A stretch of DNA of 64,000 nt from Candidatus Aminicenantota bacterium (GCA_027061995.1 JAMOUT010000101.1:1-64000), one strand, 5' to 3'. Shown: positions 2,017-23,723, counted from the first letter of the stretch. The notes: generated by a model from the letters alone, not told the origin. Made by a program: numbers and translations.

Positions 2017-2063
2017 TTATTATTATGTTTATAACAAATACAACCTTTAAAAGAGGCTATTTT

Positions 2064-3716
2064 GTGAAAACAAAATTATTTTTTTCGTTTATTATATTAC
2101 TATTTTTATTTACACCTTTTATTTCGGCAAATCAAAGACACTCTTATAAACAATATTTTTTTCAATATCAAAATGGTGAAATTCTATATAAAGGGGTAAA
2201 ATATACGGATAATTCCGATAATTTTCTTAATAATGATAATGGAAAATTTATTTTAAAATTTTTTGATTGTAACATGATTCACTTAAAAACAATCACTATT
2301 GATGAGCCAGGAGTTATTCAAAGTGACAGAAGGAGTTTTAATCAAATAAAAGGATCCATTATAAAAAAGAACGGTTATACTTTTTCCATTACAATTTCAC
2401 GAAAATTCGATCCTGTTTATGTTAAATTTTTCAGAAAAGCTGATAATTGTGATACGAATTATTATCAGCAAAAAACAACTATCATCAATCAACAACCCGA
2501 AAAAGACAAACTATTGTTTATCAATCAAGTCAAATTAAACCCGAATAAAAAACATAAGAAATTATTTTCATCAATCAATGATGCAATAATTCTTTCTCAT
2601 TCAAAATTTATTGATAACGGACCTGATAAAAGAAGAACAGACATTGTTTTCATCCCTATAGATTATTATGATTATGAGATGGATTCTTTTCATAAAACAA
2701 TCCATAATATTTTATACAATGTTTGTTGGGGAGGATGGACTGATAAAAGAACATTTTTCGATGCTTCTCCTATCAAAGAATTTAAAAAGTTATTTAACTT
2801 TCATTATCTTGATATTATAAATTTTCCTTTGGATTGGAATAAACAGATTAATTGCACGGGGGATGATTGTAAAGAGTGGCTTGACAATTATGTTAAAAAT
2901 TACATAAACACGCCTCCCGATATATATGTTTTTATTACAAAATCATACCCTTGGAGTAGTTTAACCTCCTTTTGGTATATTATTTTAAGGAAAGATGCTT
3001 GTGGTAATACTCTTTTGAGAGCTCTCGCTCGTTCCATTCTCGGAGGGAGACTTTACAATGAGTTTGATGCGGAAGATAATTATGCCGATGGAAAAGCTCT
3101 TAATAAAATATCTGACAAAAATATAACCATTTATACGGAGAGAGAGAAAATACCTTGGAAACATTGGATATCTTCAACAACGCCTCTCCCTACTCCTAAC
3201 AATGTTCATTTTAAAAATTCTGTCGGTGCTTTTGAGGGAGGATATGATTACAAATACTATTATTACAGACCTCAAGAAAAATGTGTTCTTCACGGAGATC
3301 TATGGGATTTTTGTAAAGTTTGCAGAGAACACTTTACCATAACCCTCCTTAAGCATTGGATTCATCCCTTTATATCAGCCACAACAAATACTCCGACTTC
3401 TGACACACCGATAAATTCGGAAGATACCCCTATTTTAAGATTTTCAGTTACCATTGATGCCGGATTATTAGCTATGTTTGAGTCTGCTGAAATCGTATGG
3501 TTTATGGATGACAGAAAGATGAATAATTATGATGGAAAATCTTCCATAGAAATAATCACCTCTGACATTAAAGCTGGAAAACATATAGTCAAGGCTGCTA
3601 TAATAGGGCAAGTAAGAGGAACCGAAGGATTTATCAGAAAATATATTGACACAAATTTTTATTATTCTTTCAATGAATTTGAAATTTCAAAAGGGAGATA
3701 CAGAAGAGACAGATGA
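2064..3716 (+). CDS. Exported M64 (IgA peptidase-like) homologue with a degenerate active site
   Basis: About 550 residues with a signal peptide (KTKLFFSFIILLFLF, ending near ISA). The GTG at 2064 is chosen because AGAGG lies 7 bases before it and it opens the signal peptide; the upstream ATG at 2025 lies almost on the predicted transcription start. The middle resembles peptidase family M64: a strand-loop FIPIDYYDYE near the front, WKHWI near residue 365, then VGAFEGGYDY and YRPQEKC leading to FCKVCREH (about 415-422), where M64 enzymes have the matching EG-YRP-C-FC-C pattern. Where M64 enzymes carry the zinc site HExxH followed by DEY, this protein reads RALARSILGG then YNEF, so the ligands are missing. 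A C-terminal beta-rich domain follows (about 450-530). It is first in the polysaccharide operon and overlaps the next gene by ATGA. Probably a non-catalytic binding or scaffold protein; the family link is an inference from motifs. Confidence 0.6.
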   Translation: MKTKLFFSFIILLFLFTPFISANQRHSYKQYFFQYQNGEILYKGVKYTDNSDNFLNNDNGKFILKFFDCNMIHLKTITIDEPGVIQSDRRSFNQIKGSIIKKNGYTFSITISRKFDPVYVKFFRKADNCDTNYYQQKTTIINQQPEKDKLLFINQVKLNPNKKHKKLFSSINDAIILSHSKFIDNGPDKRRTDIVFIPIDYYDYEMDSFHKTIHNILYNVCWGGWTDKRTFFDASPIKEFKKLFNFHYLDIINFPLDWNKQINCTGDDCKEWLDNYVKNYINTPPDIYVFITKSYPWSSLTSFWYIILRKDACGNTLLRALARSILGGRLYNEFDAEDNYADGKALNKISDKNITIYTEREKIPWKHWISSTTPLPTPNNVHFKNSVGAFEGGYDYKYYYYRPQEKCVLHGDLWDFCKVCREHFTITLLKHWIHPFISATTNTPTSDTPINSEDTPILRFSVTIDAGLLAMFESAEIVWFMDDRKMNNYDGKSSIEIITSDIKAGKHIVKAAIIGQVRGTEGFIRKYIDTNFYYSFNEFEISKGRYRRDR

Positions 3717-4369
3717 AAAATTTAATAAGGTTAACTCTCATATTCTTTTTTATCTCAGTTTTCCTTTCTGCCGAAACAGATAATCCGTTTCTTTCGTTAA
3801 ATTTTAATCTCGGCTTTTCCTTTATAGGACAACGGGGAAATAATTCTGAATATATATCTTCCGTTAACCCTTTTCCTCTGACTCCCTCCCATTCGGTAAC
3901 ATCCGTAGGTGGTAATATCAATCTTAGATTAAGAAAAAAACTCATTCTGGGATTAAACATGGAATATTCAATGAATAAAAAACTTTCATTGATTGATCCT
4001 TCAGATCAAGATGAATTGGTTGTTGATTCAATTGATTTTTATAATTTTTTTATCGATTTAAAATATATGTTTAGTTTATTCAATCTTAATTCTTTTATTT
4101 CCTTTGGTGCCGGAAACAATATCACAAAAGGGTGTGATGAAACATGGGCAACAACAAAAAAAGGCTATAAAATTTTTCTTCCGGAAATTGATTCAAGAAC
4201 TTCTCCTATTATGGTAATAACAGCCGGTATAATTTTTCCTCTTTCGGATACTCTTAATATTTTCACCGATGCTTCCTCTTACTATTTAATAAATGAGAAA
4301 ATATCAATGTTCAGAATTTCGTTGGGATTATCCTTTACGATAATAGATGATGCCAGGGAACAAAAATGA
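3713..4369 (+). CDS. Small outer-membrane beta-barrel-like protein
   Basis: 218 residues with a signal peptide ending at about SAE-T (residue 20). The mature part is built of alternating polar/hydrophobic strands such as LSLNFNLGFSF, GGNINLRLRK and MFRISLGLSFTI, typical of 8-10-strand outer-membrane barrels. No family motif is recognised. It overlaps both neighbours by four bases (ATGA at each end), so it is translated with the M64-like protein and the glycosyltransferase, which suggests a role in the same envelope or polysaccharide export machine. Function unknown. Confidence 0.6.
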   Translation: MKNLIRLTLIFFFISVFLSAETDNPFLSLNFNLGFSFIGQRGNNSEYISSVNPFPLTPSHSVTSVGGNINLRLRKKLILGLNMEYSMNKKLSLIDPSDQDELVVDSIDFYNFFIDLKYMFSLFNLNSFISFGAGNNITKGCDETWATTKKGYKIFLPEIDSRTSPIMVITAGIIFPLSDTLNIFTDASSYYLINEKISMFRISLGLSFTIIDDAREQK

Positions 4370-6024
4370 ATCTTGAATCACCAAAATATCCCATTATCAA
4401 ACCTGACAGAAGACTTAGGGCAAGAGCAAGAAAAGATTATAAAGAGAGAAGGGAAACCATTAGATACAGATCCAGTTTTCCGGTTAAAATATACATAGGA
4501 AACGGGAAAAATAAAAAGGTCTATGATGCCGTTGCTTATGATATTTCAGACGGTGGAATGCTTATAGGTGGTATTAATATACCTGAAAATGAGAATAGAA
4601 TAAATATAAAATTCAGAATCCCTGACGGAACAATGCCCGAGCAATATTCTCAAGGAGTATTCAAACTAAAGGGAAAAATCAGAAGAAAAGACGGAGAGAA
4701 AAATATAGGTCTTGAATTCGATGAAAAACTATCAACTTCACTTTCAAAATCTGTTTGGCAATGGCTTAAAATAATAGCGCTTTTAACGATAATCTTCACC
4801 GTCGGTCTGTTTTTTGCCGTAAAATCCCAGAATGTATATTGGTTTTGGTTTAATGTTCCGATTTTCGTATATAGTCTTGCGGTCGGATCATATCTTCTTT
4901 CAAGATATCTTTTCGCTCTGTTTTACAAACCTCCCCAACCGAGAGAGGATGAATTACCAACTGTAACAGTTATAATTCCGGCTTACAATGAAGAAGAAGA
5001 GATAATGAGAACCATCAGACAAATTATGGAAAGCGAATACCCCGAGGATAAATTATCGGTTATCGCAATAAATGACGGAAGCGCTGATAATACACTTGAA
5101 ATGCTTTTAAAAGCAAAAGAGATATATCCAGATTTAATAGTTATAGATTTCGGAGAAAACAGAGGGAAAAGAGAAGCGATGGCCACCGGTGTCAGAATGG
5201 CAAAAAGTGAAATCGTTGTTTTTGTTGATTCTGACAGTTTTCTTTATCCCGATGCAATTAGGAATATTGTGGATGGTTTCACGGATGAAAAAGTAGCTGG
5301 TGTCTGCGGGCATTGTGATGTTGAAAATATATGGGCGAATACACTAACCAAAATGCAGGCTGTCAGATATTACATTAGTTTTATAATAATGAAAGCCGCT
5401 GAAAGTGTTTTTGACTCTGTTACCTGTTTATCCGGACCTCTTGCAGCATATAAAAAAAACATAGTTATGGAAGTTCTTGATGATTGGGAGCATCAAAAGG
5501 CTTTCGGTAATCAGGCAACATTCGGAGATGACAGAAGTCTTACAACTTTTCTTTTGAAAAAATATAAAGTTATATATGATTCACGAGCGATTACCACCAC
5601 AATCGTTCCGGAAAAATACAAACAATTTTTCAAACAACAAGCTCGTTGGAAAAGGTCATGGTTCAGAGAAAGCATGAGAGCTTCTTTGTTTATGTGGAAA
5701 AAACAACCTCTGATGGCATTATCTTTTTATCTCGGGTTCCTTCTTCCTCTTCTCGGACCTTTTGTTGTCGTCAGAGCGATGCTATGGGTCCCTATCATAG
5801 GACACGGAACCCCTTTTACATACCTTTTCGGGATAGTCCTTATGAGCGCTTTAATGTCAAGTGCATATCTATTTCTGCGTAAATCAAAATTATGGGTGTA
5901 TTCATTCACCTTTAATTTTTTTTATATGTTCGTCCTTATATGGCAACTTCCCTGGGCTGTTTTAACCTTCTGGACAAGTGGTTGGGGAACAAGAAAGAAA
6001 AAGAAAAAATTAGAGAGTTTTTAA
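4366..6024 (+). CDS. PilZ domain-GT2 processive glycosyltransferase (exopolysaccharide synthase)
   Basis: 552 residues. An N-terminal PilZ domain (about 25-130) carries both c-di-GMP motifs: RETIR (RxxxR) and DISDGG (DxSxxG). Two membrane helices (about 135-180) follow, then a GT2 catalytic domain with VTVIIPAYNEEEE (near 199), the DSD metal motif (near 287), GDDR (near 388) and QQARW (near 424), the last being the mark of processive synthases such as PgaC, NodC, hyaluronan and cellulose synthases. Three or more C-terminal helices form the translocation channel. The expected reaction is polymerisation of a UDP-sugar, plausibly UDP-GlcNAc, with export across the inner membrane. A PilZ domain in front of the synthase, rather than behind it as in BcsA, implies direct control by c-di-GMP. 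Starts by ATGA overlap with the upstream gene. Confidence 0.88.
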   Translation: MNLESPKYPIIKPDRRLRARARKDYKERRETIRYRSSFPVKIYIGNGKNKKVYDAVAYDISDGGMLIGGINIPENENRINIKFRIPDGTMPEQYSQGVFKLKGKIRRKDGEKNIGLEFDEKLSTSLSKSVWQWLKIIALLTIIFTVGLFFAVKSQNVYWFWFNVPIFVYSLAVGSYLLSRYLFALFYKPPQPREDELPTVTVIIPAYNEEEEIMRTIRQIMESEYPEDKLSVIAINDGSADNTLEMLLKAKEIYPDLIVIDFGENRGKREAMATGVRMAKSEIVVFVDSDSFLYPDAIRNIVDGFTDEKVAGVCGHCDVENIWANTLTKMQAVRYYISFIIMKAAESVFDSVTCLSGPLAAYKKNIVMEVLDDWEHQKAFGNQATFGDDRSLTTFLLKKYKVIYDSRAITTTIVPEKYKQFFKQQARWKRSWFRESMRASLFMWKKQPLMALSFYLGFLLPLLGPFVVVRAMLWVPIIGHGTPFTYLFGIVLMSALMSSAYLFLRKSKLWVYSFTFNFFYMFVLIWQLPWAVLTFWTSGWGTRKKKKKLESF

Positions 6025-8802
6025 ATGAAAAAAATCTTAGTTTGGCTACAGATAATTGCGGTAATTATCATTGTAGTTTTGGTTTTATATAAGCAATTCA
6101 AACCCATACCGGCACCCGACCATAACCCCTCTCTTTGGCGTTCGTGGGATGGTTTCCTCGCCATATCTTATTCCGGAATTTCAAATAAAAAAGGAAAGGG
6201 AAATATAAATCGAAAAAAACTTTATGAAGAATTAAAAGCATTGAAAGCAGCCGGTTATAAAACAATAAGTCCGAAAGATATAATTAATTTCCTTGATAAA
6301 AAACATGCTTTACCTAAAAAAGCTATTTTCATAATGTTTGAAGAAGACAGAAAAGAGAGTTATCTCTATGCAAGAGAGATGTTAAATAATCTCGGTTTCC
6401 TCGCAACAATGGCTGTCCCTACAACCCTTATTAAAAAAGGGGGAGTTTATCTTAAGGAATCCGAACTTAGAAAACTTGCTAAGGATCCCCATTGGTCACT
6501 TGCAAGCATGGGTGATAGAGCCATTATAGGTGTTCAAATTGATTCAAAAGGAACAATAGATCATTTTTTAAGTCACAGAGCTTATGTTAAGGATAGAATG
6601 GAGAATGATATTGAATTCAGAGCCCGTATCATTAAAGATTACAGTTTATCCAAATCTTACTTATCAAAAATCAGCGGAACCCCCGTTGAAACTTACTTAT
6701 ATCCATACTCTGATCCGGGAACAGGAAGAAACGCTGATCCTATTGCGGAAGAGCTTAATATAAGAGCCGTTAAGAATTTCTATAAACTTGCTTTTGTTAA
6801 TTCAAATAATCCCTTAAACGGACCGGAATCAAATCCTTATACTCTCAGCAGGCTTAGGATACCTCATACTTGGGATGTAAAAAAATTCATAACGGAACTT
6901 AATAATTTTTTGCCAAGAAAACAAATTGATAAGGAGATTGCCGGAGATAATCTTTGGATAAAAAACGGAATAATAAAGAGAGCGGGATATCTTCTCTACC
7001 CGAAATCAAATCTTTGGCTTAAAGGGAGCGATACATGGAATGATATAAAACTTTCCTTAAAAGTAACTCTTCTACCCGGAGCCAATTTTATTATTTTTAC
7101 AAGATACACTTCAAATGATTCATTTTTCTCCGTAGGACTTGATAATAGATTTATTTATGTTCGTGAGAAAATCAAAGATTCATACCAAACTCTTTTAAGA
7201 AAACCCATATCTTCTTCAGAAACAAATTTTCATAATATTAAAATAGTTTTAAAAGGTAATAGAGCCATGGTTTGGGATAATGGTGAACTTATTTCCAATC
7301 CCATTCCAATTTCTTCGGCAACAAATAGAGGCAGGATTGGTTTCCTTGCACAAAAAGCTCCGGTTAAACTCCTTGATTTTGAAGCAAGTAAATTGAATGA
7401 ATTATTTGTATTTTCAGATGACTATCAATCTTTATCCCGTCATTTAAAAGAAAAAGTAAGCACAATAATTCCATTATGGTATTCGGATAAAAAAACCTCT
7501 ATAACCAATAAAACTGATTCATCCCCCGAAAACAATATTAATTATAAAATATTCATAGGTTTGTATAATAAATCAATCGAAGCGGATGCTGTCATCAATT
7601 ATTTGCAAGGATTCTGGTTCAAGCCGAAAAAGCATGAATTATTCGATAAATTCGGGAATAAGATGACCGAAGTTTATCTTGGCCCCTTTTCCGAGATTAA
7701 TGTAGCTAAATTAAAATACGATAAATTAAAGAATATGGGGTATGAAATCCAATTAAAAAAAATATATATAAATAATAAAATTCAAAATAAGTCTCAAAAG
7801 AAAACCTCAAATACAGTAAAAAATATTTATTTTATCAATGTAGGTGAATATAATTCTTTAAAAGATTCTCAAAAATTATATAATAATCTTAAAACTTCAG
7901 GATTTTCAATAAAATTAAATAAATTAAATGATAATAATCATAAGATTCAACTTTTGCTCGGACCTTATGAAAATATAAATGATGCAAAAAAATTAATCAC
8001 TCTTTTGAAAAAAGATAAGGGGATAAAAGGAAAACTTATAATAAAGATTTCGGAAGAAAATATTATAAAAAAACAAGAAACTGATGCGATTGATAACGGG
8101 AAAACTTTGAAAAATAAAATAAACTCCTTCCCAATCTCTTTAAAAATCGGTGATTATACAAACCCGATAAATTCTTCGGCAATTTATGATTTACTTAAAA
8201 ACAGTGATTTTCCCGTCTATGAGCGAGAATATAATATTAACGAAACAAATAAGGTAATTGAAATTTTCGTAGGTCCCTATACCAATTATTCTTCAATAAA
8301 AAATGCAATCTCCGTTCTTAATAAAATGGGTTTTACCCCTTCGATTACAATGATTATTCTTGATGAAAACAAAAAGCTTAATCTTTTAAAAGCTGCCTCA
8401 GCAGGAATAATAACATCACCTATTATTAAAATAAACAGCAGATTAAATAAACAAGCCGCTGAACATCTTGTCAGATCTATTCTCGACGAACTCAATCCTC
8501 CCGCCGTCAAATTATTATTAACAAGTTTTACAATATACGGACTTAACAGTGAACTTCATAAAGCTTTTCATAAATTCGGATTCAAATTAATAAGAATCAT
8601 AACTCCTGAAATGGCGATTAAATTTGCAAAGGAAAATCAAAAACTTTATAATGATTTACTTCTAATTAAAGGTGATAAATCAAAGATAATAAGAGCCATA
8701 AACATTCTTTTAAAATCGGTTCCCAAGGAAAACATTATAGTAGATTCTAAATTAAAAGGGAAATCTTTCGTGGGGATAAAAAGGTTCATAAGTGTAAACT
8801 AA
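6025..8802 (+). CDS. Membrane-anchored PgaB-type pseudo-deacetylase with LamG-like domain and three SPOR-like repeats
   Basis: 925 residues, anchored by one N-terminal helix (about 4-24). Residues 30-290 resemble the NodB domain of PgaB-type poly-GlcNAc deacetylases: KAAGYKTISPKDI, GFLATMAVPT, the HWSLAS turn, FLSHRAYVKDR followed by EFRARI, and YLYPYSDPG. The catalytic DD pair is FEED (near 106) and the metal-binding HSxxH reads SMGDRA, so it is probably inactive. Residues about 300-455 look like a LamG/DUF1080 beta-sandwich. Three repeats of about 75 residues begin near 505, 600 and 702, each with an IGLYN, VGEYN or IGDYT opening and a closing LGPF, LGPY or VGPY, as in SPOR peptidoglycan-binding domains. 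The last 120 residues are unrecognised. It starts directly after the synthase stop codon and likely works in the periplasm on the nascent polymer. Confidence 0.65.
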   Translation: MKKILVWLQIIAVIIIVVLVLYKQFKPIPAPDHNPSLWRSWDGFLAISYSGISNKKGKGNINRKKLYEELKALKAAGYKTISPKDIINFLDKKHALPKKAIFIMFEEDRKESYLYAREMLNNLGFLATMAVPTTLIKKGGVYLKESELRKLAKDPHWSLASMGDRAIIGVQIDSKGTIDHFLSHRAYVKDRMENDIEFRARIIKDYSLSKSYLSKISGTPVETYLYPYSDPGTGRNADPIAEELNIRAVKNFYKLAFVNSNNPLNGPESNPYTLSRLRIPHTWDVKKFITELNNFLPRKQIDKEIAGDNLWIKNGIIKRAGYLLYPKSNLWLKGSDTWNDIKLSLKVTLLPGANFIIFTRYTSNDSFFSVGLDNRFIYVREKIKDSYQTLLRKPISSSETNFHNIKIVLKGNRAMVWDNGELISNPIPISSATNRGRIGFLAQKAPVKLLDFEASKLNELFVFSDDYQSLSRHLKEKVSTIIPLWYSDKKTSITNKTDSSPENNINYKIFIGLYNKSIEADAVINYLQGFWFKPKKHELFDKFGNKMTEVYLGPFSEINVAKLKYDKLKNMGYEIQLKKIYINNKIQNKSQKKTSNTVKNIYFINVGEYNSLKDSQKLYNNLKTSGFSIKLNKLNDNNHKIQLLLGPYENINDAKKLITLLKKDKGIKGKLIIKISEENIIKKQETDAIDNGKTLKNKINSFPISLKIGDYTNPINSSAIYDLLKNSDFPVYEREYNINETNKVIEIFVGPYTNYSSIKNAISVLNKMGFTPSITMIILDENKKLNLLKAASAGIITSPIIKINSRLNKQAAEHLVRSILDELNPPAVKLLLTSFTIYGLNSELHKAFHKFGFKLIRIITPEMAIKFAKENQKLYNDLLLIKGDKSKIIRAINILLKSVPKENIIVDSKLKGKSFVGIKRFISVN

Positions 8803-8813
8803 TGGAGTATTAA

Positions 8814-11800
8814 ATGTATTTGAATAAAAAAATCATAATTGTTGTTTGGAGTTTTATTATACTTTTAACACCCGCTATCATACAAGCGTCAAAGAACAAA
8901 ACGATAAAATACAATCTTTCCGCAGTCAGACTTGTCCATCTTTCAAGAGAAAGCATGGCTAATAAAAACAGAAAAGAGGGATTTAACTATGCACTAAAAG
9001 CCGTGGAAGCGGATCCGGCTTATGCTCCCGCATGGAAACAACTCGGTAGAATATATATGCTTAAAGGAAACTATCCCAAAGCCCTCGAATGTTTTCAAAC
9101 TGTTTTGGATTTAACTCCGGAAGAACCCGATGTTCAAAACTGGATTTTATCATCAATAGAACGGTTGTTAAACCTTTCCGACTACCCTGAAGTTGAAAAA
9201 TTTCTCGCTTTATGGGAAGGCAAGAGTAAGAACTTAGGGGCAAAGGGTGCAATTTTAGCAATGAGAAAAATCGTTTACGGAAAATTGGATGAAGCGGAGC
9301 GGATTTTATCTGATGTTTTAACAATAAAACATGAAGTTAAATCTCTTTATGCTTTAACTTGGGTTCAATTGGGAATCCGTTATTTAAAGATTAACGAGTA
9401 TAATAAAGGGATATCAGCATTAAAAAGATCTCTTGAGATTAAACCTAATTGGGTCCCTGCACTAAGAGAACTCGGATGGGCATACCGAAATAAAGGGGAA
9501 AATGGAAAAGCTGCCGATGAATGGGAAAAAATACTTAAAATAACACCTCAAAATAGTAGAGTTCTCGAATGGATTGTTAAAGCAAGAATAGATGATAAGG
9601 ATTATAATTCCGCATTAAATAGTATAAACAATTTATTAAAAATACAGGATAATAATAATAAAGCATTATCATTAAAACTTATGATTTTACATCTCCTAAA
9701 TAAAAAAGATGAAATCAACCTTTTGGAAAAAGAGATATTAAAATCAAAAGATGGTTTAAAGATAATAGCTCTATCTAAAGTTGATATTTCAATATCAAAA
9801 AATGAATTTAAAGATGCTTGTGCCATTCTTGAAAACCTTAAATCCAAATATCCGAATGATCGCAAATTAATAAAACTTCTTAAAAAAACTTATCTTAATT
9901 GGAGTTCGGCAGTTACCAGTAAAGAGGCTCTCTACCCTATGAAGCAACTTGTCCGCTTATCACCGGAAAATCCGTCATACTGGAGAGACTATGGTTGGAG
10001 TCTTTGGATGAACAACAAAAAAAAGGAAGCGATAAAGGCTTGGGATACTTCAATTAAATATCATCTTCCCGACAAAGAAAGACTCATTTTTTTAGTAATA
10101 GCACAAATTGCCGAGGATAATAATATTGAGGAAGCGATATCACTCTTTAAAAAATGGAGTCCGGGTTCAAAATTTTTGCCTCTCGGACTTTCCTTAATAA
10201 AGAACACAAGATTCAGAGGTGCAAAAGTTATATTAAAGGCTGCTCTTAATAATGGAGAAGACCCTGTTACTTCCGGATTTTACCTTGCTTATGCTGAAGC
10301 TAATGCTGATGAATGTGCCCCTGTTCCCGAACATCTTAAACCATTTATAGATAATTTTTCAGATTCAATATCCGACGAAAAACTAAAGATTTTTCTTGAC
10401 ACACTAAATATGTGCACTCAAGAAGACGGCATTATCGATATTTTTGAAAATAAAAGAATTCAAGATATATTATCTTTAAAACCCGATTTTAACAACCAGT
10501 TGACAGATATAATGATTGCAAAGGCTGTTGATTTAAGACACAGGGGAAAACAACAAAAATCTCTTGCTCTTTTTAAGGAGATTTTGCGAAGAGATCCTAA
10601 TCGACCCGATATATGGGCGATGGCTGTCAGATTAGCGGAAGATATGAAAAATATCAAGGAAGCAAAAGATATAATGAGAGATCTTCTGCTTCGTTCAACA
10701 TCAGATATTGTAAGAGAGGGGATAAGAGCAAAAATAGCTCTTGATAACAATAACCTTGAAGAAGCTGTAAAACACTTTTACAAAAGTCTTAATTCTGGCC
10801 CCAATCAACCTGACCTAAGGATAGATCTTTTTAATGTTTTGTTAAAATTATACCGTTTTGATGAAGCAAGAAAACAAATTGATTGGTTTGAATCTAAAAT
10901 AGAGGTTGGGGATGTAACTACCAAAAGTATCCTTGCGGATATGTATTATATGATAGGAGAAAGGGATAAAGCATATGAACTTTGGCAGGAGCTTTATATG
11001 ACTTATCCTAATACTGCCGTGTATGCCGTTGGAGCTGCAAATGCTATGTTTAATACTTGTAATGGAGATGATGCCATTGATATTTTGGAACAATTTTTAT
11101 CAAACCATTATGATTCAAACGCTTATGAGCTTTATGCTGACATACTACTTTCAAAAAAACAATTTAAAAAAGCATTAAAGATAACTGATAAAGCTCTCAA
11201 GAAAAAAGTGATAAAAGGGATACTCAGGGCAAAAGCTGAAATAGCCGAGATTTTGAAAGAATATAAAATCGCTCTTAAGGCTTCCGAAGATTATCTTAAA
11301 ATAGATCCATCCAATGTATCTATTTTAAGAATAAAGGGAGATTCTCTGCTTTATCTTGAAAAACTCAATAATGCCCGCAAATTTTATAAAAGACTATTTA
11401 AAAGCAACAAACAGTTTTTACCAGCTTTATTGGGATTAAAAGACCTTTCTTCAATGGAGGAAAAAACCGAATTATCTCTTAAATATATAAAAACAATAGT
11501 CAAACAAAGGCCTTGGGATATAACTGCAAAAATAAAATATGCGGTCGCTCTTGCGGAAAATGATGAATATAGAGAAGCATATAAAATACTGAGAGTTCAG
11601 GCAAAAAGAGATATAAATGAAGTTGTTCCGGTTCTAATTTACAAAAATATTACAAAATGTGATTATTTTGGAAAGATATCACTTGATAAAGTTATAGCAC
11701 AATTGACAGCTTTAAAAGCAAACGGTTATCATTTTGTTTTGCCCCCCGAATTAAATAAACTTCCACTGACAGAAAAAAGAGTTATAATCGTTTTTCAAGA

Positions 11801-13430
11801 TCCATCTCCCAAGATATTAAAAAAACTTGATAAAGAGATAGAAAAACTCGGTATAAGAGCTGTTTTAGGGTTTAATACAAATTCTCCATTAAAAAATTTA
11901 CCCGATATTTTAAAAAGCGGACATTGGATAATAGCATCAACAGGCCCTTTGAATTTTGAAAGACTGCCTATAGACTCAAAAGGAACACTTGGAAATCCTT
12001 TTACACACAGATTATTCATAAATAATAAAAAAGAGAGTTATAAAGAGATGTTTATAAGAGTGGATAAATTACTTAGAAGAGCTTCAAATGCTCTCGGTAA
12101 AACTTATAAACACATATTTATTTATCCCGAAGGTGATTACGGTCAATATTCACTTAATACTGATGATAAAGCAATTAAAACATTATATAATACTGTTAAA
12201 CAAAATTTTAATTATGCAATAGCATATGATACTAACGGATTTGCCGATATTAACTATGATAATGTCAGACTTTGCGGGAAACTTGTTCCCCCTCTTTGGA
12301 CAACAAGAGACCTCATGATTCATCTTGCCGAAAACAATCCTCTTGTAAAGGCAAGACTTGAACTTGCAAAAGTTCTGTATTGGCAGAGTCAACATGAAAG
12401 GGCAAACATAAAATTCAAAGATGCAAAAAATGTCGGTGCGAATATAGTTGAAGTTTTATTTAATTGGGGTTCAAATCTTGATATGGAGGGTGATCTTCCG
12501 AACGGATTAAAAAAACTCAGACAAGCTAATAAACTTGCCCCGAAAGATAAAAGGATAATGAAAGCTTTAAAAAGAGCTGAAAACAGAAAACATCTTTTCT
12601 TCAAACCTTATTATGATACATGGGAAGATAGTGATAATCGAAGTTATTGGGGATACGGCGGTTCGATAGAAAAATATCTCAGTGATAATTTTCAACTTAA
12701 TTTTTTCGGGAATAGAAATCATTGGGAAAGAACAGGTTTTGGTTTTGAAGAGGGAACAAGATATGGTGCCGGGTTTAAATACCATTTTGCAGAAGAGAGA
12801 TGGTTTAATTTCAAATTATGGTATCTTGACATGGATATTGCACAGGATCATGTGGGGGGACAACTTGCTTTTCACATTCCAAATGCCAAATGGGGAGGAC
12901 ATTTTGATATTGAAGTTGCCCATGAAGAGATAGAAACAGTTGAAGCAATAAGAGATAAAATATATTCAAACCGATTTACCCTTTTTACATACTCAAGAAT
13001 TCAGGATATGTGGGATCTTTTTGTTAATTTATCTTACAAACACAATACAGACTCAAATGATATTATTTTCCTTTACGGGAGATTTTACAGAAGATTTAAA
13101 GAATGGCCTTTTCTCGGAATAGGCTATCTATTCAGATTCGGTGATAGTGATTTTGATCCGTATCAATATTATGCACCCGAACAACTTCAACAACATCAAA
13201 TTTACGGAACTTCACGGGGTGAATTCGGCTTTATCCATTATAGTGTAACAGCTCAAGCAGGTTACGCGAGAGAAAGAAGAGAACCTTGGAAATTCGTTTG
13301 GGGATTAAGAGCTGAAGTTGATCTTACAATATTACCTATTTTAATAATAAACGGAAGTTATATAAGACAGGATTCACCTCGCTACAGAATGACCGAATAT
13401 AAAATCGGTTTGACTCTAAGAATTTTTTGA
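8814..13430 (+). CDS. PgaA-like TPR/pseudo-deacetylase/outer-membrane barrel export protein
   Basis: 1538 residues with a signal peptide (IVVWSFIILLTPAIIQAS). Residues about 35-930 are tandem TPR repeats, for example AWKQLGRIYMLKGNYPKAL and ALRELGWAYRNKGENGKAA. Residues about 935-1165 form a second PgaB-type NodB domain related to the one in the preceding gene (HWIIAS, IDSKGT, FTHRLF, FIYPEGDYG), again without the metal ligands: FQDP replaces the DD motif and ASTGP the HSxxH motif. More TPR follows, and the last 260 residues are amphipathic beta-strands ending in LTLRIF with a terminal Phe, as in outer-membrane barrels. TPR plus barrel is the PgaA export-porin plan; an inserted deacetylase-like domain is not part of it. 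Separated by 11 bases from the previous gene; last gene of the operon, meeting the minus-strand deacetylase 16 bases downstream. Confidence 0.72.
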   Translation: MYLNKKIIIVVWSFIILLTPAIIQASKNKTIKYNLSAVRLVHLSRESMANKNRKEGFNYALKAVEADPAYAPAWKQLGRIYMLKGNYPKALECFQTVLDLTPEEPDVQNWILSSIERLLNLSDYPEVEKFLALWEGKSKNLGAKGAILAMRKIVYGKLDEAERILSDVLTIKHEVKSLYALTWVQLGIRYLKINEYNKGISALKRSLEIKPNWVPALRELGWAYRNKGENGKAADEWEKILKITPQNSRVLEWIVKARIDDKDYNSALNSINNLLKIQDNNNKALSLKLMILHLLNKKDEINLLEKEILKSKDGLKIIALSKVDISISKNEFKDACAILENLKSKYPNDRKLIKLLKKTYLNWSSAVTSKEALYPMKQLVRLSPENPSYWRDYGWSLWMNNKKKEAIKAWDTSIKYHLPDKERLIFLVIAQIAEDNNIEEAISLFKKWSPGSKFLPLGLSLIKNTRFRGAKVILKAALNNGEDPVTSGFYLAYAEANADECAPVPEHLKPFIDNFSDSISDEKLKIFLDTLNMCTQEDGIIDIFENKRIQDILSLKPDFNNQLTDIMIAKAVDLRHRGKQQKSLALFKEILRRDPNRPDIWAMAVRLAEDMKNIKEAKDIMRDLLLRSTSDIVREGIRAKIALDNNNLEEAVKHFYKSLNSGPNQPDLRIDLFNVLLKLYRFDEARKQIDWFESKIEVGDVTTKSILADMYYMIGERDKAYELWQELYMTYPNTAVYAVGAANAMFNTCNGDDAIDILEQFLSNHYDSNAYELYADILLSKKQFKKALKITDKALKKKVIKGILRAKAEIAEILKEYKIALKASEDYLKIDPSNVSILRIKGDSLLYLEKLNNARKFYKRLFKSNKQFLPALLGLKDLSSMEEKTELSLKYIKTIVKQRPWDITAKIKYAVALAENDEYREAYKILRVQAKRDINEVVPVLIYKNITKCDYFGKISLDKVIAQLTALKANGYHFVLPPELNKLPLTEKRVIIVFQDPSPKILKKLDKEIEKLGIRAVLGFNTNSPLKNLPDILKSGHWIIASTGPLNFERLPIDSKGTLGNPFTHRLFINNKKESYKEMFIRVDKLLRRASNALGKTYKHIFIYPEGDYGQYSLNTDDKAIKTLYNTVKQNFNYAIAYDTNGFADINYDNVRLCGKLVPPLWTTRDLMIHLAENNPLVKARLELAKVLYWQSQHERANIKFKDAKNVGANIVEVLFNWGSNLDMEGDLPNGLKKLRQANKLAPKDKRIMKALKRAENRKHLFFKPYYDTWEDSDNRSYWGYGGSIEKYLSDNFQLNFFGNRNHWERTGFGFEEGTRYGAGFKYHFAEERWFNFKLWYLDMDIAQDHVGGQLAFHIPNAKWGGHFDIEVAHEEIETVEAIRDKIYSNRFTLFTYSRIQDMWDLFVNLSYKHNTDSNDIIFLYGRFYRRFKEWPFLGIGYLFRFGDSDFDPYQYYAPEQLQQHQIYGTSRGEFGFIHYSVTAQAGYARERREPWKFVWGLRAEVDLTILPILIINGSYIRQDSPRYRMTEYKIGLTLRIF

Positions 13431-13446
13431 TATAAAACTTATTATA

Positions 13447-14415
13447 TTATTTTTTTCTTTTTAATTTTTCAACCGCTTCCGATACAGTGTAAAATTTCAC
13501 TTTTTTAGCCGCATATTTTATAAGTTCTTCAAAATATGACCTTTGCATCCCGTAGCAAGGTCCTACAATAAATTTTGTTCCTGATTTTGCCACATTCTTT
13601 AAATTATTATTATCAATTAATATCTTTCTTCCGCTAAACCCCTTTACTTTCAAATCCGTATTTTGAATTCTTGTATTTGTATCGGGAACAAGACATAGAG
13701 CATTATGGTTCAATGGTTTAAAATCATCTTTTGCAATTATATAATCGTCCCCCACTGAAATAATTTCACCTTTTATATAATGATCCTCTTCAAATATTTC
13801 ATGACTGTAAACAAACATTATCTTATCCTGCATTTTGGCAAAATTTATCCACATCTTTACCTGTCTTAACGGAATATAATAACCCAAATCAATAGAAGTT
13901 CCGGGATAGGATTTGTCATTATAAAGCTTATTTGTCAAAGGTAACGGACTGTATCTTCTGAAGCTATTAAATTTTTCATAGGCAATCTTTGAAGTCAACT
14001 CATTAAAAGAGTTAAAAGGGAAAACTATTGAACGGATACGATTAATACCATTTGACTGAAACTCGGATATTGATTTTTCCACCTCATCCTTTAACCATCT
14101 ATCAATACCGTATTTTTCAACATATTTTGCAGAATTAAAATGATGATAAGTATGAGTTCCTATCTCCCATTTATAATAATTTTGCAATTTTCTTAAATCA
14201 TCGAAAGTTAAGTATCCACTGTGAACTCTTTGGTTATTCACAAATACTGTCGCAACGCCTCCGACTTTTTGTAATTCGGGAGCAGCAATATTAATCCAGC
14301 TCGGATACCCGTCATCAAATGCTATTGATATCCCCCCCCTCTTTTGTTGAGCGGGTAATATCATAACAAATGCTATCAGATAAATAATAAATAAGATATA
14401 AATTCTATTTTTCAT
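13447..14415 (-). CDS. Polysaccharide deacetylase (NodB family), exported
   Basis: 322 residues with a signal peptide ending near PAQQ. The NodB core is intact: FDDGY (about 33-37) provides the base and metal aspartates and GTHTYHHF (about 84-91) the metal histidines, followed by FPFNSF and a C-terminal YSHEIF. An extra beta-rich segment of about 85 residues lies between SHEIF and the end of the fold, beyond the usual NodB length. It should remove N-acetyl groups from a GlcNAc polymer in the periplasm or outside. It overlaps the preceding GH18-like gene by 11 bases and is convergent with the exopolysaccharide operon, whose own two deacetylase-like domains lack metal ligands, so this may supply the real activity. 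Confidence 0.85.
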   Translation of the reverse strand: MKNRIYILFIIYLIAFVMILPAQQKRGGISIAFDDGYPSWINIAAPELQKVGGVATVFVNNQRVHSGYLTFDDLRKLQNYYKWEIGTHTYHHFNSAKYVEKYGIDRWLKDEVEKSISEFQSNGINRIRSIVFPFNSFNELTSKIAYEKFNSFRRYSPLPLTNKLYNDKSYPGTSIDLGYYIPLRQVKMWINFAKMQDKIMFVYSHEIFEEDHYIKGEIISVGDDYIIAKDDFKPLNHNALCLVPDTNTRIQNTDLKVKGFSGRKILIDNNNLKNVAKSGTKFIVGPCYGMQRSYFEELIKYAAKKVKFYTVSEAVEKLKRKK

Positions 14416-15472
14416 ATTCCCTCCGTTTTTTCTTGTATTTCCTTATCAGGCTATACAATGAATTATCATTAGAACCGAGATACCAAAGCATAATTTCTCC
14501 GTATTCAGCTTTTATGGCTGCTTCTATTTTTTCTTCCAAACTAATCGGATCATCAAACCAAAGTTCATCTCCGTTTTTATCTTTAATATACGGAACTCTT
14601 GATTTTCTTTCCCTTTTTAAATTCACTGAGTTCAGATACTTTTGAGATTCTTTCCATGAGTATCTTATTATATTTTTATTTTTATGCCAATAAAACCCTT
14701 TTAGTGCAATTGCAATAGAGGGGCATCCCTTTGCATCTCCTTCAACCCTCTCTTTTAATTTCTTAATAAATTTTGGCGTTGACCTTGGGCCGGGACCCGT
14801 AAAATTACCGTGTAAATTATAACTCATAACAATGAGATTCATTGTCCCCCAATAAGGAAGAGGACCTTTTGTCGGTTCGATGATTATTTTAAGTTTTTTA
14901 TTCTCACTTTTCAATGCCGCGGATAATTCAATAAGATAATTTTGGTAACCTCTCTCTTCTGACTTTTTTATATTTTCAAAATCAAGATCAAGTCCCTTAA
15001 AACCGAATTTGTTCATGATTTTTATAATCGAATCTATATTTTTCTTTCTTATTTTATGGTTATAGAAAATTTTTCTTAATATTCCGATATCCTTTAGTAT
15101 TGTTTTCTTTTTCCCCCTTCTTAAATCATTAACTATTGTTATCCAAGGGGAAAACCCCTTCTTTTTCGACAATTTTATGAATTTTATAATCTGCCTATGA
15201 CTTAAACCGTCAATAACAGCCTCCCCTTTTTCATTAAGTTCAAGAGAAAAAAGTGAAATTCTGTCAAATAGATCTCCATGGGTTTCAACCTCTTCAAAAC
15301 CTGAACTATCCCAATACACCACCCAACCTCCGAGACCTATCGTAGATGCAATCGCCACACCTTTTAATAAAAAAAGCGATATTAGTATAATTACAAATTT
15401 TTTGAATATTATATTAAATATCTCTATTAGAATATTAATTTTAACTTTTTCATTATACTGATTTAAAGACAT
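14405..15472 (-). CDS. GH18-like glycosidase or chitinase-fold protein, exported
   Basis: About 355 residues with an unusually long N-terminal stretch before the hydrophobic signal helix (FVIILISLFLLKGVAIAS). The TIM-barrel signature GLDLDFE (about 157-163) matches the GH18 motif DGxDxDxE, with the catalytic D-x-E present and the first Asp replaced by Lys. Other barrel strands are SPWITIVND, LKIIIEPT, NLIVMSYNLHG and GEIMLWYLG. The ATG at 15472 has no ribosome site, but a TATAAT box lies exactly 5 bases before it, so the mRNA is probably leaderless. The context next to a deacetylase and the synthase operon suggests it cuts or binds the same GlcNAc-type polymer. The exact substrate is unknown. 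Confidence 0.72.
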   Translation of the reverse strand: MSLNQYNEKVKINILIEIFNIIFKKFVIILISLFLLKGVAIASTIGLGGWVVYWDSSGFEEVETHGDLFDRISLFSLELNEKGEAVIDGLSHRQIIKFIKLSKKKGFSPWITIVNDLRRGKKKTILKDIGILRKIFYNHKIRKKNIDSIIKIMNKFGFKGLDLDFENIKKSEERGYQNYLIELSAALKSENKKLKIIIEPTKGPLPYWGTMNLIVMSYNLHGNFTGPGPRSTPKFIKKLKERVEGDAKGCPSIAIALKGFYWHKNKNIIRYSWKESQKYLNSVNLKRERKSRVPYIKDKNGDELWFDDPISLEEKIEAAIKAEYGEIMLWYLGSNDNSLYSLIRKYKKKRREYEK

Positions 15473-15477
15473 CTGCA

Positions 15478-15506
15478 ATTATACATCATATTGTTTTGCT
15501 TGACAA
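15478..15506 (-). promoter_or_regulatory. Promoter of the GH18-like/deacetylase pair (leaderless)
   Basis: Read on the minus strand: TTGTCA (15506-15501), 17 bp spacer, TATAAT (15483-15478), five bases, then the ATG at 15472. The expected transcription start coincides with the start codon. Confidence 0.65.
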
Positions 15507-15547
15507 TTTAATAAATCAATCTTTTAAATAATTTTTTAAACTTTCTA

Positions 15548-15576
15548 TTGACAAATTTTAAAATTTCATAGATAAT
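15548..15576 (+). promoter_or_regulatory. Sigma-70 promoter of tRNA-Gly and bactofilin
   Basis: A perfect TTGACA at 15548-15553, 17 bp spacer and GATAAT at 15571-15576. The tRNA begins 9 bases later, as expected for a tRNA promoter with a one- or two-base 5' leader. Confidence 0.8.
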
Positions 15577-15584
15577 TAACCCTT

Positions 15585-15656
15585 GCGGGCATAGCTCAGT
15601 GGTAGAGTATCAGCTTCCCAAGCTGAGTGTCGCGGGTTCAAATCCCGTTGCCCGCT
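15585..15656 (+). tRNA. tRNA-Gly (anticodon CCC)
   Basis: A 72-base cloverleaf: acceptor GCGGGCA pairs with TGCCCGC, D-arm GCTC/GAGT, anticodon stem TCAGC/GCTGA around the loop TTCCCAA, and T-arm GCGGG-TTCAAAT-CCCGT. Anticodon CCC reads GGG glycine codons. The discriminator base is T (U73), the bacterial glycine identity base. The CCA end is not encoded. The bactofilin gene starts 25 bases downstream with no promoter between. Confidence 0.96.
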
Positions 15657-15681
15657 AAAATAAATTATAAGAGAGGATAAA

Positions 15682-16182
15682 ATGGGATTTATATCTAACA
15701 AACCAAAAAAAGTTTCAAATTCAGGTAATGATTTTGATAATCATTACTCATCGCAAGGGATATCTTCTGAAAAAACCATTATCGGTAAAACCATTAAAAT
15801 AGAGGGCGAAGTTAAATCTGACGAAGATGTTATCATAGAAGGTAAAGTAAGCGGCAAAGTGGAAGTCGGCAAAACTCTTACCATCGGAAAGCACGGTTAT
15901 GTAAACGCAGAAATATCAGCTCGTATTGTCAGAATTCTCGGAAAAGTTGAAGGTGATGTAAAAGCTATCTATAAAGTTGAGATTGTTCCCGAAGGTAAAC
16001 TTTACGGAAACATTAAAGCTCCTAAGATTGTTATTGCGGAAGGGGCATTATTCAAGGGAAGCGTAGAGATGAATGATAACAAGGAACTTCTTAATAAAAA
16101 CAATTCTCTCGAATCACCGAAGACAACTACTGTCGAAAATAACAAACAAGGGAAAAATAATAATTCAAAAAACACTCTTTAA
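15682..16182 (+). CDS. Bactofilin (polymer-forming cytoskeletal protein)
   Basis: 166 residues. A central right-handed beta-helix domain (about 30-132) shows the bactofilin pattern of short repeating strands: IKIEGEVKSDEDVIIEGKV, LTIGKHGYVNAEISA, ILGKVEGDVKA, VPEGKLYGNI and KIVIAEGALFKGSV. Disordered N- and C-terminal tails flank it. Bactofilins polymerise without nucleotides and act as scaffolds for cell-wall or envelope enzymes. GAGAGGA lies before the ATG. It probably shares the tRNA promoter, and its stop codon overlaps the start of the next gene by one base (TAATG). Confidence 0.92.
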   Translation: MGFISNKPKKVSNSGNDFDNHYSSQGISSEKTIIGKTIKIEGEVKSDEDVIIEGKVSGKVEVGKTLTIGKHGYVNAEISARIVRILGKVEGDVKAIYKVEIVPEGKLYGNIKAPKIVIAEGALFKGSVEMNDNKELLNKNNSLESPKTTTVENNKQGKNNNSKNTL

Positions 16183-16982
16183 TGAATAGAAATAAAACAT
16201 GGTATTTAATAACCGATAAAAATCATAATAATGCCGCTTATAATATGGCGGTTGATGAATTAATCTTAATAAAATCAGAAGAAAATAAAGATACTACATT
16301 TTTAAGATTTTACGGATGGAACCCACCCTCAATTTCAATAGGAAGATCTCAGAAACATAAAAAAGTCGCAAATTTAGAACTTCTTAAAAAATACGGAATA
16401 GACCTTGTCAGAAGGCCGACAGGAGGAAAAACTGTTCTTCATTATGATGAATTAACCTATTCAATAGCTTCATCGGATAATATCTTTATGAGTTTCACAT
16501 CAATACGGGATGTATATAATTTGTTAGCGAAAGCTTTGCTTAAAGGGCTTCAAAATCTTGAGCTTGACGCCGAGATCATTAGTAAGGATCCTAAAGGATT
16601 GGTAAAAACAGATATGCCCTGTTTTTCATATCCCACCCGAGATGAAATCGTTATCAAAGGGAAAAAAATAATTGGTAGTGCACAAAAAAGATCTAAAACC
16701 GCTTTCCTTCAACATGGTTCAATCCCTGTAAAAGACAGAAGAGAACTCTATGCGGAGATTACAGGTGTGGATAAACAGATTCTCCTTGATTCCATGACAA
16801 GTATTGAGCTTGAAATCGGAGATACTGATTTTCATATAATAAGAGACTCTTTTGTAAAAGGATTTAAGGATGAATTTAAAATTGATTTTAAGGAATATGT
16901 TTTTGATAAAGAGGATATTAAAACAATTAATTCTCTTATCAATAATAAATATTCCTCTATTGATTGGAATTACGAGCTCTAA
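16182..16982 (+). CDS. Octanoyltransferase LipM-like (lipoate-protein ligase A family)
   Basis: 266 residues of the BPL/LplA/LipB fold. RRPTGGKTVLHYDELTYS (about 77-94) forms the acyl-binding loop. PCFSYP places a conserved Cys near residue 147, the position of the LipM catalytic cysteine, and GKKIIGSAQKR supplies the lysine, followed by LQHGSI. LipM moves octanoyl from acyl-carrier protein to the GcvH or E2 lipoyl domain, the first step of lipoate synthesis. A true lipoate ligase is the alternative, but the length and the Cys environment favour LipM. The last 113 bases overlap the next gene in another frame. Confidence 0.8.
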   Translation: MNRNKTWYLITDKNHNNAAYNMAVDELILIKSEENKDTTFLRFYGWNPPSISIGRSQKHKKVANLELLKKYGIDLVRRPTGGKTVLHYDELTYSIASSDNIFMSFTSIRDVYNLLAKALLKGLQNLELDAEIISKDPKGLVKTDMPCFSYPTRDEIVIKGKKIIGSAQKRSKTAFLQHGSIPVKDRRELYAEITGVDKQILLDSMTSIELEIGDTDFHIIRDSFVKGFKDEFKIDFKEYVFDKEDIKTINSLINNKYSSIDWNYEL

Positions 16983-17907
16983 GCTATTTTCAACAGAATA
17001 TTTAATCCAAATCCATACGATAAAACAAAAAGATATTAAAGTTTTTAAAGAACAACTTATCAAATATAGAGAAATCGGTTTTTCAGGAGCAATAATAAGA
17101 GTTTTTCAAAACAGAGATGATAGTTATCACTATATATCCCCTATATTAAACAAGAAAGGAGTTTATTTTTCAAACAATGAAAGGACTCCTACAATATCCC
17201 CGATTATTAATAAACTAACCTCTGATTATAATATTCCCGATTTTAAAACAATTGTTTGGATGAGCACAAGAAGGATGGATTGGGTCAATGGGAAAAGATT
17301 CGGAAAATATCTTATTCTTCAGAATAAGCAAAATCAAAAAAATATTTTATCTTATTTTAAAAGTTTAGCTAATTTCAAAATAGCTGGAATATTAATTCAA
17401 GATGACTTGGTTATAAAGAAAAAAGAGGAAAATTTTTTGGGAGTAAAAAATAAAAAAGAGATAATTCTTCAATACCTTCAAAATATAAAAAAAATTATCG
17501 GCAAAAAAGAACTTATAACAAATATCTATTATGAAGTCCCGTATAATTCGGCAATAGGAGACAGCTGGTACGGACAAAATATGGATGATTTTTTTAATGT
17601 CGGAGTTGATAGTGTTGCGATAATGCTATACCAAAAACAAATCCAAAGAGAGTTAAAATTAAATGATACAAAATTATATCAATATATAAATAAAATCATA
17701 AATAATCTAAAACCTTATGCTGAAAAAACTTATATAAAACTTCAAATAACAGATTTTAAAACCGGGAAATTCATAAAAATAGACAGATTATTGAAAATAA
17801 TTAATCTTATCCCCGATAATTTCAAAGGGATTATATTCACCCCCGTTAGAACCGATAAATTTACATATCTCTATTTAAAATCATTAATCGGTAGGATAAA
17901 AAAATAA
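16870..17907 (+). CDS. Exported PgaB C-terminal-like (GHL13/GH153) glycosidase-fold protein
   Basis: 345 residues. The start lies inside lipM: AAAAGGA at 16856-16862 sits 7 bases before the ATG at 16870, and the hydrophobic segment LILLSIINIPLLIGITSS that follows would be the signal peptide. There is no start codon between the lipM stop and the conserved part, so the 113-base overlap appears real. The mature part resembles the GH domain of PgaB: FSGAIIRVFQNRDDS, GVYFSN (near 97), KTIVWMSTRRMDW (near 127-139) and GWYGQ-like loops around DSWYGQNMDDF. PgaB uses this domain to bind or cleave de-N-acetylated PNAG in the periplasm. Here it lacks the usual N-terminal deacetylase half. Assignment to the family is a motif-level inference; catalytic acids were not individually placed. 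Confidence 0.6.
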   Translation: MNLKLILRNMFLIKRILKQLILLSIINIPLLIGITSSKLFSTEYLIQIHTIKQKDIKVFKEQLIKYREIGFSGAIIRVFQNRDDSYHYISPILNKKGVYFSNNERTPTISPIINKLTSDYNIPDFKTIVWMSTRRMDWVNGKRFGKYLILQNKQNQKNILSYFKSLANFKIAGILIQDDLVIKKKEENFLGVKNKKEIILQYLQNIKKIIGKKELITNIYYEVPYNSAIGDSWYGQNMDDFFNVGVDSVAIMLYQKQIQRELKLNDTKLYQYINKIINNLKPYAEKTYIKLQITDFKTGKFIKIDRLLKIINLIPDNFKGIIFTPVRTDKFTYLYLKSLIGRIKK

Positions 17908-20844: not shown

Positions 20845-21405
20845 TTAAATATACCTTCTTACTCTTTTTTTATATTTACGATATTTTTCACCATGAAGAT
20901 TCTCAAGATATTTTTCCTCTTTTAAAATCATAAGATGAAAAAGGATGATTGTGATTATCACTGTTATAAACAAAATGAGCGATGGAAGAGATAACAGCAT
21001 ACCGATTAAAACCAAATCATATGAAAGAAAATAGGGATTCCTTGATATTTTGTATAAACCTGTTTCTATAAGCTCTGTTTTTTCATTTTCATCAACCCCT
21101 ATTCTCCAGGATTTTTTCATATTCAAAGATGAGAGAATACTTATTATTAATCCCATAGAGATTAAAAAAGCCCCTATTGCCCTTAAAACAGGGGAAAAAC
21201 CTATTATAAAAAGATACTTTCCTATCTCCGGAAATAAAAGATAAAACAGGAATATAACCGAAGATAAACCTGCGAAAAAAACCGAGCTGTTTACAAGCGA
21301 ATTTTTCGCTTTAACAGGCTTTCTTAATTCTTTGGATAATAGATAAGCCCTTAAAAAGAAAAACAGGTAAAAAACAAATATTAAAAATATCAAAAAATAT
21401 CTCAT
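20845..21405 (-). CDS. Isoprenylcysteine carboxyl methyltransferase/PEMT-family membrane methyltransferase
   Basis: 186 residues with about five hydrophobic helices. The C-terminal signature is TGLYKISRNPYFLSYDLVLIG followed by EEKYLENLHGEKYRKYKKRVRRYI, which binds S-adenosylmethionine in the ICMT/PEMT superfamily. Bacterial members methylate lipids or unknown membrane substrates, so the acceptor is not predictable. It overlaps the start of the PBP1C gene stop by four bases (ATGA), so it is translated with that gene. Confidence 0.82.
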   Translation of the reverse strand: MRYFLIFLIFVFYLFFFLRAYLLSKELRKPVKAKNSLVNSSVFFAGLSSVIFLFYLLFPEIGKYLFIIGFSPVLRAIGAFLISMGLIISILSSLNMKKSWRIGVDENEKTELIETGLYKISRNPYFLSYDLVLIGMLLSLPSLILFITVIITIILFHLMILKEEKYLENLHGEKYRKYKKRVRRYI

Positions 21406-23720: not shown

Positions 23721-23723
23721 ATA

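Follow-up and report, generated by a model that had tools for sequence, protein, structure and literature searches.

This locus raises the question of whether a group of polysaccharide genes rich in PgaB-like parts is a rearranged pga operon or a machine of another kind. It lies in a 64,000-nucleotide stretch of DNA from a Candidatus Aminicenantota bacterium (GCA_027061995.1 JAMOUT010000101.1:1-64000), analysed as a whole and called the window below. A sequence-only reading had described here a PNAG-like exopolysaccharide machine with dispersed and duplicated PgaB parts. Every part that it listed was found where it had been placed, and Pfam and NCBIfam scans back each assignment. To judge from these families, the genes of the locus probably make, trim and export a sugar polymer, and we consider it fairly probable that they form a c-di-GMP-responsive, synthase-dependent exopolysaccharide system whose product would contain GlcNAc and be partly de-N-acetylated. 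Our case starts from what could be observed directly, namely gene content and order, conservation, the loss or retention of motifs, and the placement of the synthase.

Gene content and conservation of the locus

Five genes on the plus strand (2025-13430) overlap their neighbours by 4 bp, abut them or stand 11 bp apart, and with such spacing they very likely constitute one operon. The first (2025..3716) encodes an exported protein resembling M64 peptidases (Pfam PF09471, 1e-10), and the GTG at 2064, proposed earlier as its start, is the likely one. The HExxH zinc site of M64 peptidases is absent from all three orthologues. The body of the protein is highly conserved, and it is the third enzyme-like product of the operon without an active site. 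Next comes a small protein (3713..4369) that belongs to no Pfam family and is predicted, from its sequence only, to be an outer-membrane barrel; its orthologues in two related genomes, G001 and G003, are 33-35% identical. A processive synthase of the NodC/HasA type follows (4366..6024), combining PilZ (2e-7) with a GT2 domain (Glycos_transf_2, 9e-30). The last two genes encode the large proteins we call D (6025..8802), with a transmembrane anchor, a dead PgaB-type NodB domain, a LamG/DUF1080-like stretch, SPOR repeats and a conserved C-terminal domain, and E (8814..13430), with a TPR array, a dead PgaB-type NodB domain, a short TPR-like stretch and a predicted outer-membrane barrel. Beyond them, on the minus strand, lie a stand-alone de-N-acetylase of the NodB family with intact FDDG and THTYHH motifs (P0007, 13447..14415) and its conserved partner, an exported GH18-family hydrolase (14405..15478; 5e-15).

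Conservation was followed in a family sample of five metagenome-assembled genomes in the dataset: that of the window (G000) and G001 to G004, of which G001 and G003 represent a sister genus. The check on co-occurrence that had been proposed with the earlier reading was run, and the five-gene operon kept its order in G000, G001 and G003, with different flanks and, in G003, over two contigs. Such conserved order amid different flanks excludes a chance grouping of the five genes. Neither G002 nor G004 nor the remainder of a 60-genome sample of relatives yielded the operon. A scan of genome contigs with the synthase alignment, using two peptide patterns, returned only two close relatives and unrelated GT2s.

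The gene at 16870-17907, a PgaB C-terminal-like (GHL13) gene with a weak match (1e-4) to that part of PgaB, had been counted among the parts of the machine. It occurs in G000, G002, G003 and G004, in each case with bactofilin and lipoate-ligase-like genes immediately before it; G001, which carries the operon, does not have it. Its distribution is thus independent of the operon, and we exclude it from the system. The block to which it belongs (15682-17907: bactofilin, a lipoate-protein-ligase-like gene and the PgaB-C-like gene, whose product resembles TIM-barrel glycosidases) is found in four of the five family genomes irrespective of the operon. Further along (21402-29159), a PBP1C-like transglycosylase is followed by a large alpha-2-macroglobulin-like protein, as far as a reading of the sequence tells.

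The synthase

The window synthase retains both PilZ motifs (RRETIR and DISDGG), and its catalytic motifs (TFGDDRSLT, QQARW and WGTR) are like those of hyaluronan synthase and partly like those of NodC, with TFGDDR in place of the TED motif of PgaC. In the PDB it comes closest to hyaluronan synthases (1e-35). On the NCBIfam models it scored 175 for NodC (cut-off 550) and 146 for PgaC (TIGR03937, cut-off 422), while a true NodC and a true PgaC, used as controls, scored 760 and 648 on their own models. In a 29-sequence tree the PilZ-GTs group with NodC, HasA-like enzymes and other Acidobacteriota GTs, apart from PgaC/IcaA (100/99), and a constraint uniting them with PgaC/IcaA was rejected (p-AU 4e-5). 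A single PilZ-GT clade is compatible with the tree test (p 0.37), which does not itself establish monophyly. A GT of the NodC/HasA type does not by itself fix the linkage of the polymer; given where the synthase falls, the polymer is more likely to be beta-1,4 GlcNAc-based or hyaluronan-like than beta-1,6 PNAG.

A processive GT2 fused to PilZ, together with GGDEF proteins, corresponds by sequence to the synthase and c-di-GMP receptor of synthase-dependent systems. The genome holds eight GGDEF matches, and these and the PilZ domain suggest that the synthase may be under c-di-GMP control. Among the related Acidobacteriota synthases described below, that of G258 has a degenerate PilZ motif and that of G168 an altered one.

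The pseudo-PgaB subunit D

D starts with a transmembrane helix and matches PF01522 (1.5e-5) and two PgaB models (5e-11 and 9e-11); its profile finds E. coli PgaB in the PDB at 6e-25. A LamG/DUF1080-like stretch is present, and Pfam detects two SPOR stretches where a low-confidence AlphaFold model has three SPOR-like units. The C-terminal domain (residues 780-925) is strongly conserved in Aminicenantes and has no convincing family match. AlphaFold models of D (from three sequences) and of the C-terminal half of E (from two) reached pLDDT values of just 48 and 40, too poor to use, so the NodB assignment of both proteins rests on profile comparisons.

The catalytic state of 14 D copies was compared with H55, D114, D115, H184 and H189 of E. 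coli PgaB. None keeps the full set, H55 is missing from all 14, and the equivalents of the metal-binding His184 and His189 are both gone from 12. The window copy reads FEED and SMGDRAI, and Bacillota copies read FEDG and (S/T)NGYR. In three other Acidobacteriota D115 is replaced by G, H or Q; the D of G258 retains D114 and both histidines and that of G341 one histidine. To go by the residues of G258, D could keep some activity. The constant position of D beside the synthase, its dead carbohydrate-binding fold and its LamG-like stretch suggest a subunit that holds the chain or acts as a scaffold. There is a precedent for an inactive NodB fold with a structural role in BA0330 and BA0331 of Bacillus anthracis, surface proteins that have the fold without deacetylase activity (PMC4505593). 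Unlike D, these are cell-wall lipoproteins unlinked to a polymer synthase.

The exporter-like protein E

The NodB stretch of E (about residues 935-1165) is too decayed for Pfam alone. It finds D at about 1e-10 by sequence search, and in profile-profile comparison at 97.7% and 2e-12 with the dead E copies only, or 7e-38 once intact orthologues are included. Against the PDB the full profile matches BpsB/PgaB at 1e-18, driven by the intact members; a profile of the three dead domains alone reaches PgaB at just 0.011, below weak chance matches to ERV1. The intact members are those of the Acidobacteriota genomes G341, G258 and G168, where all five PgaB reference residues are kept (3/3). None of the catalytic set survives in the three Aminicenantes copies, save one Asp in that of the window (FQDP).

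Around this domain, E has TPRs and a C-terminal barrel-like region that has the (T/S)D(S/G)N and YYxP positions in common with PgaA, although a direct comparison of the two barrels gave no significant score. The membrane-proximal TPR region of PgaA binds the deacetylase domain of PgaB and raises its activity (PMC9384988), which fits a fusion of TPRs, NodB and barrel in one protein.

The GH18-deacetylase pair

Genome-wide, PF01522 matches just two proteins, P0007 and D, and only P0007 has intact motifs. The middle Asp and catalytic Glu of the GH18 enzyme (DxDxE-type) are present in all 14 sequences compared. The two genes lie next to each other in G000, G001 and G003, and in G001 and G003 they are not linked to the operon. 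The syntenic spot in G004 holds a truncated deacetylase, in which FDDG has become FDNR and THTYHH has become TYFSHH, and a mere scrap of GH18; neither gene was found in G002, a less complete genome. That the pair is intact in exactly the three operon-bearing members of a small, five-genome profile is suggestive of its tracking the operon. The decayed deacetylase of G004, a genome without the operon, lies at L030 5057-5656.

Live deacetylase motifs come from different sources in different lineages: the E fusion in other Acidobacteriota, a stand-alone upstream NodB protein in Bacillota, and the stand-alone P0007 in the window. A separate intact enzyme is therefore present where the NodB domain of E has died. 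By sequence, the predicted deacetylase and GH18 enzyme, with E, would provide the polymer-modifying enzymes and TPR exporter expected of a diderm synthase-dependent system. Catalysis by GH18 enzymes needs an N-acetyl group. The hydrolase of PgaB belongs to GH153, which requires deacetylated PNAG (PMC5933820), and given these opposite needs the two systems probably cut at different sites.

Spread beyond the family

Each phylum was surveyed in a sample of some 400 genomes. Among the 396 from Acidobacteriota, matches to the GT profile fell into two clearly separated ranges, 680 bits or above and 347 or below. In G341, G258 and G168 the PilZ-GT, a D-like protein, E and GH18 stand side by side; the profile of the C-terminal half of E matches in G341 and G258 and weakly in G168. 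With 43% identity across 96% of its length, a stretch that takes in PilZ, the window synthase also matches a protein encoded on a plasmid of Paenibacillus cellulositrophicus, where D (26%, 4e-35) and GH18 (26%, 5e-33) follow directly. Full-length PilZ-GTs scoring about 700 bits were found in 7 of 398 genomes from the phylum of a Clostridium genome, all seven loci having the order GT, D, GH18. Outside the family, D and GH18 are thus present at all 11 full-length PilZ-GT loci (3 Acidobacteriota, 1 Paenibacillus, 7 Clostridia-type), and the order of this core is shared between two phyla that are only distantly related. None of 398 sampled Pseudomonadota genomes has the PilZ-GT system.

The core in the monoderm Bacillota has no outer-membrane part at all. 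Upstream of the synthase, Paenibacillus and each of the seven clostridial loci encode a further NodB protein. A nucleotide sugar dehydrogenase is encoded at five of these clostridial loci, and one of the five enzymes was typed as TviB-like; their presence points to polymers that in some cases include a uronic acid. Three intermediate GTs in the Clostridium-phylum sample, which lack PilZ, are accompanied by neither D nor GH18. For these synthases (L109, L110 and L111; 455-475 bits), a nucleotide sugar dehydrogenase adjoins the synthase in L109 and, as read from the sequence, in L110, with response-regulator-like genes in the vicinity.

Discussion

Motifs and gene sets bear out the view of the locus as a machine for synthase-dependent exopolysaccharide production, one whose PgaB-type NodB domain has been duplicated, separated from the glycoside hydrolase and made partly non-catalytic. 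The label PNAG-like, on the other hand, is unsupported, since the synthase falls outside the PgaC/IcaA clade and the hydrolase belongs to GH18, where PgaB has a GH153 domain. Nor do we retain the idea of a rearranged pga operon: Bacillota have the core with no outer-membrane part, and we prefer to view the system as a lineage of its own that shares PgaB- and PgaA-type parts. A PgaD was not found: between 2025 and 15478 every ORF of 100 aa or more is accounted for, and the related loci conserve no candidate. A bifunctional PgaB (active NodB plus GH153) is missing too, with NodB dead in both D and E and the PgaB-C-like gene tracking another block. As predicted from its genes, then, the system is not a member of pga on the counts of synthase, PgaD and bifunctional PgaB, and at the level of parts it is a member of the broad synthase-dependent class.

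That the polymer is nevertheless beta-1,6 PNAG, made by a canonical pga locus whose PgaB parts are merely dispersed, seems to us improbable. The NodB domains of D and E are closest to PgaB in the PDB and NCBIfam, and the predicted barrel of E has motif positions in common with PgaA, but the synthase scores far below the PgaC cut-off, its grouping with PgaC/IcaA is rejected, it has no TED motif, and neither PgaD nor GH153 is part of a system that has GH18 throughout. A hyaluronan-like or other uronic-acid polymer, built from GlcNAc and a uronic acid by a HasA-type GT, is rather unlikely as well. In its favour are the best PDB matches of the synthase, the HasA-like GT within the same large tree group, and the dehydrogenases near most clostridial GTs and beside some of the intermediate ones. 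Neither the window nor Paenibacillus nor any of the three other Acidobacteriota loci showed a dehydrogenase close to the GT, and GH18 and de-N-acetylases are better suited to GlcNAc homopolymers.

We regard it as very unlikely that the operon and the deacetylase/GH18 pair are unrelated neighbours, the pair being cell-wall enzymes acting on peptidoglycan. Enzymes of both families can act on peptidoglycan or spore cortex, and in the sister genus operon and pair are not linked; against this stand the GH18 orthologues at a GT-D or GT-D-E locus in all 11 cases outside the family, and the joint loss in G004. Similarly poor are the prospects that D, and E in the lineage of the window, are active enzymes with a different metal site. 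FEED or FEDG and the flanking residues are indeed conserved within lineages, but both metal-binding histidines are missing from nearly all D copies and from all three family E proteins, and H55 from every D.

For the polymer machine that we favour, we infer complex formation and propose the following sequence of steps. The PilZ-GT2 would polymerise and extrude an N-acetylhexosamine-containing chain, probably beta-1,4 GlcNAc-based and chitin-like or hyaluronan-like, not beta-1,6 PNAG. D, with its anchor in the inner membrane beside the synthase, would hold the nascent chain through its dead PgaB-type and lectin-like domains, and in the Aminicenantes lineage its SPOR repeats may tie the complex to peptidoglycan. 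Part of the acetyl groups would be stripped by a live de-N-acetylase, which according to lineage may be P0007, the NodB domain fused into E or the separate upstream NodB protein, and GH18 would trim or clear the polymer at acetylated residues. E would then lead the chain along its TPRs and out through its barrel, a step that monoderms would do without. We further suggest, with belief and doubt evenly balanced, that this is a separate class found across phyla, with a fixed core of PilZ-GT2, a constitutively dead PgaB-type subunit and GH18, to which interchangeable NodB enzymes of different subfamilies supply de-N-acetylation; in Aminicenantes, catalysis would have moved from the exporter fusion to a stand-alone enzyme.

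Several known systems resemble this one in part. With pga/hms (PgaABCD) it shares the PgaB-type NodB, a putative exporter of TPRs and predicted barrel with common barrel motif positions, and the logic of synthase-dependent secretion. It differs in having a synthase that is not PgaC and is fused to PilZ, in lacking PgaD, in using GH18 for GH153, and in a duplicated NodB domain of which one copy is always without the catalytic set and the second is fused into the exporter. The monoderm version, with a GT and a PgaB/IcaB-family NodB and no exporter, recalls ica (IcaADBC), whereas IcaA belongs to the PgaC clade, IcaB is active, and ica has neither GH18 nor PilZ. The NodC/NodB chitooligosaccharide system and HasA are alike in GT type (GDDR/GEDR, QQxRW) and in the deacetylase partner; they have no PilZ, dead deacetylase subunit or TPR exporter.

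A survey of pga and ica operons by Bundalovic-Torma (2020) reports variants with split, fused or lost PgaB (PMC7112194). The passages of that survey that were consulted contain no core of PilZ-GT, pseudo-PgaB and GH18, no dead PgaB, and no occurrence of the string 'acidobacter'. Literature searches covering openly available main texts returned no description of the core either, and within that range of sources it is likely to have been undescribed before. Its occurrence in the Acidobacteriota and Bacillota samples and absence from the sampled Pseudomonadota may explain why it escaped notice.

The system offers a conserved and testable case in which a pseudo-enzyme replaces PgaB as the subunit beside a polysaccharide synthase. 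It also provides a natural series, from the monoderm core through diderms with a live deacetylase fused to the exporter to diderms with a dead fusion and a stand-alone enzyme, which shows how such machines acquire an outer-membrane exit and exchange catalytic parts. One host is in culture, Paenibacillus cellulositrophicus KACC 16577.
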